DNA of 64,000 nucleotides from the NCBI GenBank assembly GCA_026125895.1, contig JAHCKG010000015.1:1-64000 (forward strand). Reading direction: 5' to 3'. This DNA is from Pseudolabrys sp. (lineage in GTDB: Bacteria > Pseudomonadota > Alphaproteobacteria > Rhizobiales > Xanthobacteraceae). The translations under genes were made by a program, and so were the position numbers. Positions 30,858-54,643 of this stretch are shown here, piece after piece (position 1 is the stretch's first letter; the number at the start of each line of letters is the position of its first letter). The notes beneath the pieces are model-generated. The model was given only the letters and a program-made list of their open reading frames with translations, made no database searches and was not told the origin of the DNA.

Positions 30858-30872
30858 GCGGCTGCCTCTTCA

Positions 30873-30979
30873 CCTCTCCCATAGGGAGAGGTCGGCCCGC
30901 AAAGCGGGCCGGGTGATGGGTTACAGCCTCATACGCAATTGGCCCCCTCACCCTAGCCCTCTCCCCAACGGGGAGAGGG
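30873..30979. repeat. Inverted pair of CTCTCCC hairpin repeats between dnaA and dnaN
   Basis: The left unit has hairpin CCTCTCCCATAGGGAGAGG, hairpin GGCCCGCAAAGCGGGCC and tail GGGTGATGGG. The right unit has tail CCCCCTCACCC and hairpin CCCTCTCCCCAACGGGGAG (extended to GGG), and lacks the second hairpin. The tails face inward across about 22 bases. It is the same family as around the DUF559 gene. Confidence 0.85.
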
Positions 30980-32298: not shown

Positions 32299-33264
32299 AT
32301 GCAGATCGCCATGATCGGGCTCGGCCGCATGGGCGCCAACCTGTCGCGCCGGCTGATCAAGCACGGCCATCAGGTCGTGGTCAGCGACCACTCGGCCACC
32401 GCCGTCGAGGCGCTGGCCAAGGATGGCGGCACCGCGGCCGCGTCTCTGGAGGACGTCGTCAAGAAGCTCACCGCGCCGCGTGCGGTCTGGGTGATGCTGC
32501 CGGCGGGCGACGCCACCGAGACGACGATCAATCGCCTCGCCGAACTCCTGTCACCGGGCGACACCATCATCGACGGTGGCAACACCAACTGGCGCGACGA
32601 TTTGCGCCGCGCCGCGGCGCTGAAAGCGCGCGGCCTGCACCACATCGACATCGGCACCTCGGGCGGCGTCCTCGGCGCGACGTCTGGCTACTGCCTGATG
32701 ATCGGCGGCGAGAAAGCCGCCGTGGACCGCCTCGCGCCCATCTTCGCCGCGCTGGCGCCCGGCGACGGCAAGATGTCGCCAACATCAACAGCACCGGACG
32801 GCTGGCTGCATGTCGGCCCCAACGGCGCCGGGCATTTCGTCAAGATGGTGCACAACGGCATCGAATACGGCCTGATGCAGGCCTATGCCGAAGGCTTCCA
32901 GATTCTCGCCGAGGCCAACGACGCCAGCGTGCCGGAGGCCGAGCGCATGGCGCTCGATATCGGCGCCATCGCGGAAGTCTGGCGCCACGGCAGCATCGTC
33001 GAATCCAAGCTGCTCGACGTCACCGCCAAGGCCTTGGCCGGTGACACGGCGCTCAATGAGTTTTCCGGCGTGGTGGACGACACCGGCGAAGGCCGCTGGA
33101 CCATCCAGACCGCCATCGAGCGCGCTATTCCGGTGATGACGTTGTCGGCGGCGCTCTATGCGCGCTTCCGCTCGCGCCGGCAGCCGAACTTCGCCGACAA
33201 GGTGATTTCAGCCATGCGCCGCGGTTTCGGCGGCCACGGTGAAGGTAAGGTCGCCGGCAAGTAG
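32299..33264 (+). CDS. gnd: 6-phosphogluconate dehydrogenase, decarboxylating (short GntZ/YqeC type)
   Basis: 321 residues. N-terminal Rossmann motif MIGLGRMGANLSRRL, DGGNTNWRDD, the substrate motif GTSGGVLGATSGYCLMIGG, the catalytic lysine region GAGHFVKMVHNGIEYGLMQA and the late EGRWTIQTAIERAIPV. The short form (about 300-330 residues) is commonly NAD-dependent. It converts 6-phosphogluconate to ribulose-5-phosphate. It begins 37 bases after dnaN and is followed after one base by gluconokinase, forming a two-gene gluconate pathway unit between dnaN and recF. Confidence 0.95.
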   Translation: MQIAMIGLGRMGANLSRRLIKHGHQVVVSDHSATAVEALAKDGGTAAASLEDVVKKLTAPRAVWVMLPAGDATETTINRLAELLSPGDTIIDGGNTNWRDDLRRAAALKARGLHHIDIGTSGGVLGATSGYCLMIGGEKAAVDRLAPIFAALAPGDGKMSPTSTAPDGWLHVGPNGAGHFVKMVHNGIEYGLMQAYAEGFQILAEANDASVPEAERMALDIGAIAEVWRHGSIVESKLLDVTAKALAGDTALNEFSGVVDDTGEGRWTIQTAIERAIPVMTLSAALYARFRSRRQPNFADKVISAMRRGFGGHGEGKVAGK

Positions 33265-33265
33265 C

Positions 33266-33790
33266 ATGACGGATCAGCGCGCCAGCACATGGACCGCCGC
33301 CATCATCGTCATGGGCGTCTCCGGCGCCGGCAAGAGCACCATCGGCGCGTTGCTGTCGCAGCGTCTGAACCGGCCGCTGGTCGAAGGCGACAGCCTGCAT
33401 CCGGCCGCCAACATCGCGAAGATGACGCAAGGCATTCCGCTCAATGACGACGACCGCCGGCCCTGGCTCGAGGCCATCGCCGCACGTATCGACGAGGCGC
33501 GGCAGACGCGCAGGCCGGTGATCGTCACCTGTTCGGCGCTCAAGCGCGCCTATCGCGAGATTCTGACCGGCGGCCATGACGATGTCGGCTTCGTCTATCT
33601 TCGCGGCACCAAGGACCTGATCGCCAGCCGGCTCAAGGCTCGCACCAACCACTTCATGCCGCCGGGCCTGCTCGACAGCCAGTTCGTCGCGCTGCAGGAG
33701 CCGGGCGAGGACGAGCCGACCCTGTCGATTGCGATCGACGCGCCGCCGGACGAAATGGCGGACAGGATAGTACGCCAGTTCGTGCCGTAG
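33266..33790 (+). CDS. gntK: Gluconokinase
   Basis: 174 residues from ATG 33266, one base after the gnd stop, so the two are coupled. P-loop VMGVSGAGKSTIGALLSQ, then EGDSLHPAANIAKMTQGIPL, TCSALKRAYREIL and FVYLRGTKDLIASRLKAR: a complete GntK-type kinase. It phosphorylates gluconate to 6-phosphogluconate, the substrate of the preceding enzyme. Its end is 32 bases from the left inverted repeat of the DUF559 cassette. Confidence 0.95.
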   Translation: MTDQRASTWTAAIIVMGVSGAGKSTIGALLSQRLNRPLVEGDSLHPAANIAKMTQGIPLNDDDRRPWLEAIAARIDEARQTRRPVIVTCSALKRAYREILTGGHDDVGFVYLRGTKDLIASRLKARTNHFMPPGLLDSQFVALQEPGEDEPTLSIAIDAPPDEMADRIVRQFVP

Positions 33791-33822: not shown

Positions 33823-34303
33823 TACCCTCTCCCCTTGTGGGAGAGGGTGGCGCGCGGAACGCGCGCCGGGTGAGGGGTCGGTGTCAGCCGGAGTCCACCA
33901 TCGGCCGGTCAGAGCTCAAGGTCGCGCTTTCGCAAAGCGAATGCGTCGGACACCGACCGACGCCGAGGTAGCTATGTGGCGCCTCCTGCGAAACCGCCGA
34001 TTGGCGGCCTTCAAATTCAGACGACGGGTGCCATTTCAAAGGTTCATTCTGGACTATGTTTGCTTCGATCCGAAAACCGTTATCGAGATCGACGGCAGTC
34101 AGCATGCCGGCTGCGACCGTGATAGACAACGCGATGCCATTCTTGAAACCGAAGGCTTCGCGGTTCTCCGCTACTGGAATAACGATGTACTGCAAAGGCG
34201 AACGGCCGTCCTCGAGGACATCCACTCTCATCTCACCGGTCGACGCTGACCCCTCACCCGGCGCGCGTTCGCGCGCCACCCTCTCCCACAAGGGGAGAGG
34301 GTA
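33823..34303. mobile_element. DUF559 cassette bounded by 57-bp inverted repeats
   Basis: The left repeat (33823-33879) and right repeat (34248-34303) are inverted copies differing by one inserted G. Each has an outer hairpin (CTCTCCC and GGGAGAG arms around CTTGT), an inner hairpin (GGCGCGCG...CGCGCGCC) and a tail GGGTGAGGGGTC facing inward. A 122-residue DUF559 gene fills the interior exactly: its GTG starts two bases after the left repeat and its stop overlaps the right one. No target duplication is evident by eye. Confidence 0.7.
33881..34249 (+). CDS. DUF559 domain protein (Vsr-like PD-(D/E)XK nuclease fold)
   Basis: 122 residues from GTG 33881; an internal ATG (MRRTPTDAEVAMW) is an alternative start. 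DUF559 motifs: MRRTPTDAEVAMWRLLRNRR, FKFRRRVPFQRFILDYVCF, the acidic site VIEIDGSQHA and the C-terminal YWNNDVLQ. The D...ExD pattern is that of very-short-patch-repair-like nucleases. Activity and target are not established for the family. The gene is exactly enclosed by inverted repeats, suggesting that gene and repeats form one unit. Confidence 0.88.
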   Translation: MSAGVHHRPVRAQGRAFAKRMRRTPTDAEVAMWRLLRNRRLAAFKFRRRVPFQRFILDYVCFDPKTVIEIDGSQHAGCDRDRQRDAILETEGFAVLRYWNNDVLQRRTAVLEDIHSHLTGRR

Positions 34304-34305
34304 GG

Positions 34306-54514: not shown

Positions 54515-54643
54515 CCCTCTCCCCTTGTGGGAGAGGGTGCCCGAGCGAAGCGAGGGCGGGTGAGGGGGATGTGCTTCGCGATGTCGCCCCCTCACCCGGC
54601 TCGCGCTCCGCGCTCGCCACCCTCTCCCACAAGGGGAGAGGGG
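54515..54643. repeat. Inverted pair of CTCTCCC two-hairpin repeats without a gene
   Basis: Outer hairpin CCCTCTCCCCTTGTGGGAGA (then GGG), inner hairpin CCGAGCGAAGCGAGG region, and tail GGGTGAGGGGG facing an inverted copy across about 18 bases. The outer hairpin is identical to that of the DUF559 cassette at 33823-34303, so this is a gene-less version of the same unit. Confidence 0.88.

Follow-up and report, generated by a model that had tools for sequence, protein, structure and literature searches.

Introduction

Intrastrand-triplex repeats have been familiar for decades and are tied to genome instability. We know of no maker for those named BoxC, PIT or TM, whose origin has, to our knowledge, been unexplained since the 1990s. 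BoxC/PIT/TM repeats are found in more than 260 bacterial genomes, and the E. coli motif forms a triplex in vitro (Holder 2015, PMC4666352). In the portions of that paper drawn on here, the repeats have no association with mobile elements and no enzyme is named for them, and the five inverted pairs of E. coli always join a type A with a type B unit. Inverted hairpin repeats are also a feature of REPIN-RAYT systems (REPtrons), in which they surround a single-gene cassette encoding a Y1/HUH transposase, carry a GTAG tag at the hairpin foot, and are accompanied by many gene-less inverted pairs. IS200/IS605 elements are compact, with distinct left and right hairpin ends. Finally, EDxHD homing endonucleases and Vsr are mobility or nicking nucleases, the former residing in introns, inteins or conserved target genes.

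The locus analyzed here has something of each of these systems. Like REPIN-RAYT, it is a single-gene cassette bounded by inverted hairpin repeats, and numerous inverted pairs lack a gene, but its enzyme is a PD-(D/E)XK, Vsr-like DUF559 protein and its triplex-motif repeats have no conserved tag: GTAG stands at the right foot only of the element (34301-34304), not at the left foot, nor in the same element of the relative G392. The element would work like REPIN-RAYT, yet enzyme and tag place it outside that group. The resemblance to IS200/IS605 lies in the compact, distinct ends, but no Y1 transposase was found in this genome and the ends are triplex-type units in inverted orientation. Similarity to EDxHD homing endonucleases (I-Bth0305I) and to Vsr is remote, and the gene belongs to an intergenic repeat element rather than to an intron or intein. 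With BoxC/PIT/TM repeats it shares the purine arm, the mirror tail and the inverted pairs of two unit types, whereas here the units enclose a nuclease gene. None of the known kinds tested takes the element in, so that it would form a new category, provided that the mechanism considered below holds.

Results

Anatomy of the element

The window, i.e. the whole stretch of 64,000 nucleotides that was analyzed, comes from a Pseudolabrys sp. genome of 4.5 Mb that is 82% complete (G000). Between its gntK and recF reading frames lies an element of 481 bp with a single gene (Table 1). A sequence-only reading of the window had described near-identical inverted units tightly enclosing a DUF559 gene, which starts just past one unit and stops within the other. 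Its coordinates and inverted arms are right: complementarity between the arms is 100% over 34 nt and 89% over 35 nt, the GTG codon begins within two bases of the end of the left unit, and the 122-aa ORF overlaps the right unit by two bases at its stop. The tail of the left unit occupies a Shine-Dalgarno-like position ahead of the start codon.

Table 1. Positions of the element, of its parts and of the gene-less pairs in the window.
Feature	Position	Strand	Description
gnd and gntK	32299-33790		between dnaN and recF
Left unit	33823-33879
Left unit, hairpin 1	33824..33848	+	stem of 10 bp with loop CTTGT; 5' arm C-rich, 3' arm purine
Left unit, hairpin 2	33849..33867	+	variable GC stem
Left unit, purine tail GGGTGAGGGG	33868..33877	+	mirrors the 3' arm of hairpin 1; may serve as third strand of a triplex
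DUF559 (PD-(D/E)XK, Vsr-like) predicted nuclease gene	33881..34249	+	GTG start at 33881, 122 aa
Stop codon TGA	34247-34249
Right unit	about 34248-34303		two-base overlap with the ORF
Right unit, tail CCCCTCACCC (reverse strand GGGTGAGGGG)	34250..34259	-
Right unit, hairpin 2	34260..34277	-
Right unit, hairpin 1	34278..34302	-
Gene-less inverted pair	54515..54643	.	hairpin-1 type of the window element (loop CTTGT); 20-base spacer between tails
Gene-less inverted pair, another subtype	30872..30979	.	one unit with hairpin 2, the other without

The same reading had reported two copies of the repeat pair without a gene. Both pairs are present, but the one at 30872 is of a different subtype. It resembles the repeats of a nuclease clade (L007/L069) that was not found in G000, and is perhaps an orphan copy. 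With at most 2 mismatches, the hairpin core has 61 forward matches in the genome versus 3 for the reversed pattern, an abundance that is not due to chance. The gnd and gntK genes separate dnaN from recF in the window; in the relatives G392 and G423, dnaN directly precedes the recF element.

The DUF559 protein

The window protein matches PF04480 (DUF559) with an E-value of 1.2e-34 and 118.9 bits, for a cut-off of 20.6, and residues E29, D58, E69, D71 and H75 are invariant among 14 aligned proteins. Its relatives of known structure are 3hrl, an 'Endonuclease-Like Protein' (E 1.7e-35), and, weakly, 3r3p, a 'Mobile intron protein' (E 0.005), which we take to be I-Bth0305I. With the Vsr model, the protein scored below the cut-off (14.0 bits versus 97.85, E 0.047). 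Published accounts, as far as the sections available to us go, describe I-Bth0305I as an EDxHD homing endonuclease (PMC3943268), place one DUF559 gene within the EDxHD homing family (PMC9403480), and class E. coli YcjD among predicted PD-(D/E)XK nucleases, with a profile that retrieves Vsr (PMC1189080). Caulobacter VsrA (CCNA_02930), also a DUF559 protein, is described in the accessible part of its report as needed for a DNA damage response when a methyltransferase is missing from the cells (PMC12907096). YcjD and VsrA are DUF559 proteins like that of the window, but YcjD is not cleanly enclosed and VsrA has been studied as a repair nuclease.

Enclosure of short DUF559 genes

To score enclosure, the flanks of each gene were aligned with each other in inverted orientation and the best alignment was taken, with a threshold of at least 14. 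In G000, five DUF559 genes were found, each of them short and each enclosed by inverted hairpin repeats (scores 21-53); the repeats fall into several sequence types. Within the genus, 56 of 61 short loci of a first set reached the threshold (13 of 74 loci were dropped because of short flanks), as did 91 of 101 in a larger set (10 of 111 dropped for the same reason). A C-rich hairpin with a stem of at least 7 was present on both sides in 85 of these 101 loci and on one side in the other 16, leaving 0 with neither. As controls, long DUF559 genes (about 400 aa) were enclosed in 0 of 20 cases, out of at least 38 long ones, and shifted flanks in the genus scored as high in 4 of 81. Among GTDB loci (the best 80 of at least 559 confirmed places; 4 of the 80 were dropped), 58 of the 76 with flanks scored at least 14, compared to 4 of 70 shifted-flank controls (6 more loci were without a shifted control).

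Enclosed loci in the GTDB set belong to Alpha-, Beta- and Gammaproteobacteria, Geobacter and a Desulfobacteraceae bin, and also to bins labelled Planctomycetota, Dehalococcoidia, Omnitrophota and Melainabacteria; bins labelled Nitrospirae, Spirochaetes and Stahlbacteria fell below 14, and such bin labels can be wrong. The flanks that the sequence-only reading proposed to look for around DUF559 genes of relatives are therefore present (genus 91/101, GTDB 58/76), and enclosure recurs in many bacteria, which is wider than that reading stated. We regard the association of DUF559 with inverted repeats, together with its anatomy, as virtually certain.

Up to ten DUF559 matches per genome were counted in the genus, among the matches listed, which are a lower bound, several genus genomes being incomplete; presence is patchy. 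Most genomes of the genus have about one copy of the long DUF559-domain gene (at least 38 in all), and the 20 copies examined were without flanking repeats. In G414, two short genes (L207 and L208) share a contig at a distance of about 1.2 kb. Further away, the DUF559 gene of Caulobacter sp. 602-2 (L282) is enclosed by such units with a score of 27 (shifted control 15), and that of Neisseria gonorrhoeae (L235) has, by eye, similar hairpin-plus-tail units on both sides, in direct and not inverted orientation. Phage records gave 2 weak matches.

Structure of the repeat unit

Units are built in a constant order: hairpin 1, with a C-rich 5' arm and a purine 3' arm, then a short linker or hairpin 2, then the purine tail. 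An antiparallel purine third strand requires that arm and tail be in mirror order. When tail and hairpin-1 purine arm were compared in 266 units, the mirror relation was better in 151, tied with the direct one in 114, and worse in 1; counted by distinct arm-tail types (n=99), these figures are 57, 41 and 1, with a small bias towards mirror because the tail pattern demands at least 3 final G. The direct relation, better in 1/266 units or 1/99 types, was rejected. Judged on purine arm and mirror tail, the repeats are the known BoxC/PIT/TM intrastrand-triplex motif, an identity that had escaped the sequence-only reading. No link of DUF559 to BoxC/PIT/TM, or to inverted or REP-type repeats, was found in the open-access literature searched, and within these open papers the connection is unpublished.

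Hairpin 2 was examined in nine units from gene-less pairs (9 of the 12 type B pairs; L323, L327 and L330 were left out). Its sequence varies and its pairing is kept: 94.9% of cells pair, versus 79.7% in shuffles, and 8 of 11 pairs are changed on both sides, a covariation reached by 0 of 500 shuffles; the structure was drawn from the same sequences, and slid versions score far lower. Among all parsed second-hairpin stretches, 128 of 180 have a stem of at least 4. The loops tallied include 104 triloops, 86 of which are C(GNA)G, for a chance of one in sixteen of a GNA loop. Since such triloops are overrepresented, and GNA-type loops are exceptionally stable in DNA, selection appears to act on the folded DNA. 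In six members of one clade, five of them at recF, identity is 0.65 for the gene and 0.59 for hairpin 2; the values for the arm (0.95) and tail (1.0) come from parts located by a fixed pattern and were not used as evidence.

Repeat type, copy number and the nuclease gene

Arranging the loci along the protein tree shows that the type of repeat, in arm, loop and tail, goes with the nuclease clade. Over 104 loci and 5073 non-orthologous pairs, the Mantel rank correlation is weak (rho 0.155, p 0.003). The repeat distance is 0.155 for nearest protein neighbours and 0.260 overall; units of the same element are 2.8 edits apart, versus 6.9 between elements.

Copy number was then related to gene presence at three levels. 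In the genus, leaving aside the copies that flank the gene itself, type B repeats averaged 9.7 copies in the 7 genomes with a type B gene, as read from the protein tree, and 4.8 in the 36 without (p 0.011, kinship uncorrected). For type C repeats, the means were 15.6 in 12 genomes with a type C gene and 5.0 in 31 without (p 0.0008, likewise uncorrected). Presence or absence alone gave p 0.035 for type B and p 0.14, not significant, for type C. The cross-tests gave p 0.44 and 0.046, type C counts being raised also with a type B gene (p 0.046). Type B repeats occur in 20 of the 36 genus genomes without a type B gene, and type C repeats in 21 of the 31 without a type C gene. The type C pattern is nearly its own mirror image, and the reversed pattern is therefore no valid control for it.

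In the class (239 genomes besides G000), a DUF559 match was called strong at a best E of about 1e-25 or better. Of the 56 genomes with such a match, 35 have the motif, versus 12 of the 183 without, among which was counted G378, with a split frame and 10 motif copies. The odds ratio is 23.8 (Fisher p 1.5e-17) and mean copy numbers are 10.3 versus 0.28, kinship uncorrected; 21 of the 56 genomes with DUF559 are without the strict motif. In the family the contrast is weak: where DUF559 is matched, 120 of 138 genomes have the motif, and where it is not, 7 of 11 (p 0.06, kinship uncorrected). The association of copy number with DUF559, by which the sequence-only reading was to be judged, is therefore seen at the class level and for two genus repeat types, but hardly in the family, and not in genus g41 or in G077. 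Four genomes (G073, G077, G094 and G145) have 40-60 repeat copies and no DUF559 match, and G130 has 38 copies with a weak match. No enclosed gene was found around unpaired units in 20 regions of G073 and G077 (L337-L356). Either recent gene loss or another mobiliser would account for these repeat-rich, DUF559-less genomes.

Mobility, empty sites and distinct ends

Two elements located 35 kb apart on one contig of G075 (L008 and L225) are 93.6% identical over 455 bp. The shared stretch comprises the gene, both repeats and, on one side, about 17 further bases; outside it the sequences are unrelated. Similarly, L140 and L143, from two species, have 434 bp in common that end at the repeats. No clear target-site duplication was seen at L008/L225 or at L140/L143. 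Among the high-identity gene pairs listed, 58 of 60 run on into the flanks on at least one side; most close copies are therefore positional orthologues, and gene movement is rare.

Empty sites exist as well. A site occupied in Sinorhizobium is empty in Shinella. Upstream of recF, the element is found in 3 of 17 genus relatives examined (G392, G420 and G423), and also in G396, and at least 6 relatives have a clean junction without it (L093-L097 and L102); empty sites between gntK and recF are what the sequence-only reading had proposed to look for. Both gene-less pairs of the window are absent from the orthologous sites of G392. In the twelve type B gene-less pairs, hairpin 1 and the tail are kept, and hairpin 2 and the short spacer differ.

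The two ends are not equivalent. In the DUF559-less genomes G073, G077 and G145, 48 of 48 hand-picked inward pairs combine a longer with a shorter unit, versus about 18 equal pairs expected; in two of the 48, the length of one unit departs by a base from the usual. As all 48 come from genomes without DUF559, the link of such heterodimer pairs to the nuclease is one of likeness. Among gene elements, hairpin 2 is present at both ends in 49, at neither in 34 and at one in 27; in this last group, all elements but one carry it 5' of the gene (26/27; 8 positional clusters, 7 of which agree). Unequal inward pairs and the 5' position of hairpin 2 in 26/27 thus indicate that the ends are distinct and the element polar.

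Discussion

A proposed mobility nuclease for the repeats

We think it somewhat probable that DUF559 is the dedicated mobility nuclease of these repeats, the whole being a REPIN-like mobile system. The 481-bp unit would then be an autonomous mobile element, consisting of triplex-capable ends and of a sole gene, for a Vsr-like PD-(D/E)XK nuclease, and the gene-less inverted pairs would be non-autonomous copies, comparable to REPINs. An end that becomes single-stranded or extruded, upon replication or supercoiling, would fold into a hairpin and a purine-motif triplex. The nuclease may recognise this folded end and nick or cut there, after which host repair or replication would copy the element to a new site, or convert other copies. 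Host enzymes would have to join the strands, because a hydrolytic nuclease does not. A REPIN-like system with DUF559 in the role of RAYT is what the sequence-only reading had suggested; flanks, empty sites and copy number in the class agree with it, copy number in the family hardly does.

A different role for DUF559, which we judge unlikely, is that of a homing nuclease: the repeats would be spread by something else, and DUF559 would be a selfish gene invading repeat pairs, with the units serving as recombination arms. The similarity to 3r3p, weak as it is (E 0.005), and the EDxHD assignment of a DUF559 gene, in the part of PMC9403480 considered here, would fit, as would the position of the gene, which is that of the short spacer in gene-less pairs, and the plentiful repeats of G073, G077, G094 and G145, which are without the gene. 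However, repeats are rare in the class when DUF559 is missing (mean 0.28 versus 10.3 copies), repeat type tracks the nuclease clade, and no other mobiliser was found in the search made, which was for Y1_Tnp only.

The dedicated mobility nuclease should also be weighed against a host function, which seems to us rather improbable, whereby DUF559 would repair or process hairpin or triplex DNA, and the flanking repeats would be selected regulatory or docking sites. The element is kept upstream of recF in G000 and four relatives, and its tail is in Shine-Dalgarno position: an in-frame start follows the tail in 86 loci of the genus, at a distance of at most 12 bases in 69 of them. Moreover, Caulobacter VsrA is tied to the DNA damage response in what is available of PMC12907096. 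Against a host function stand the patchy presence of DUF559 and its multiplicity, with up to ten matches listed in a genome, as well as empty sites and an element copied with its ends (L008/L225).

It is very improbable that a Y1/RAYT or other transposase acts in trans on repeats and gene, with DUF559 as a passenger. The anatomy does resemble RAYT-REP cassettes, as described in the part of PMC3733652 at hand, but the match between gene and repeat is clade specific, and Y1_Tnp, the only family searched, was not found in G000 (82% complete), is absent from 38 of 43 genus genomes and gave weak matches in the other 5. Y1/RAYT was thus set aside as an unlikely mobiliser in the genus. Enclosure by chance, or because abundant GC-rich palindromes act as insertion hotspots, can practically be dismissed: common as the repeats are in these genomes, the control genes (0/20) and the shifted flanks (4/81 and 4/70) speak against it, and start codons fit closely to the tail.

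Possible consequences for triplex repeats

If DUF559 is the mobility nuclease of its repeats, a larger reading opens, for which the case is nearly, but not quite, balanced: a new class of mobile elements across phyla, in which a Vsr-like hydrolytic nuclease would read single-stranded ends, distinct on left and right and folded into hairpin and intrastrand triplex, and would thereby create and maintain BoxC/PIT/TM repeats. Genome instability at these repeats would then be driven by a nuclease, and not be a passive effect of structure. The enclosed cognate nuclease gene would be a candidate maker and mover for intrastrand-triplex repeats, and DUF559, including E. coli YcjD and Caulobacter VsrA, would gain a candidate substrate, folded triplex DNA. 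REPIN-like repeats would then arise by two unrelated enzymatic routes, the one proposed here being directly testable in E. coli K-12.

In that strain, ycjD (b1289, L234) extends at its 3' end into a degenerate hairpin; about 166 bp past the stop lies a BoxC-like motif. Our DUF559 survey panel gave no Escherichia coli match though K-12 carries ycjD; the panel strain may be without the gene, or the first search may have been insensitive. In other E. coli phylogroups, the ycjD site is occupied by eefRABCD, according to the portion of PMC12817139 used here. By megablast, ycjD is present in 3365 of 5426 E. coli genomes, which constitute a natural presence/absence set for effects on BoxC/TM repeats.
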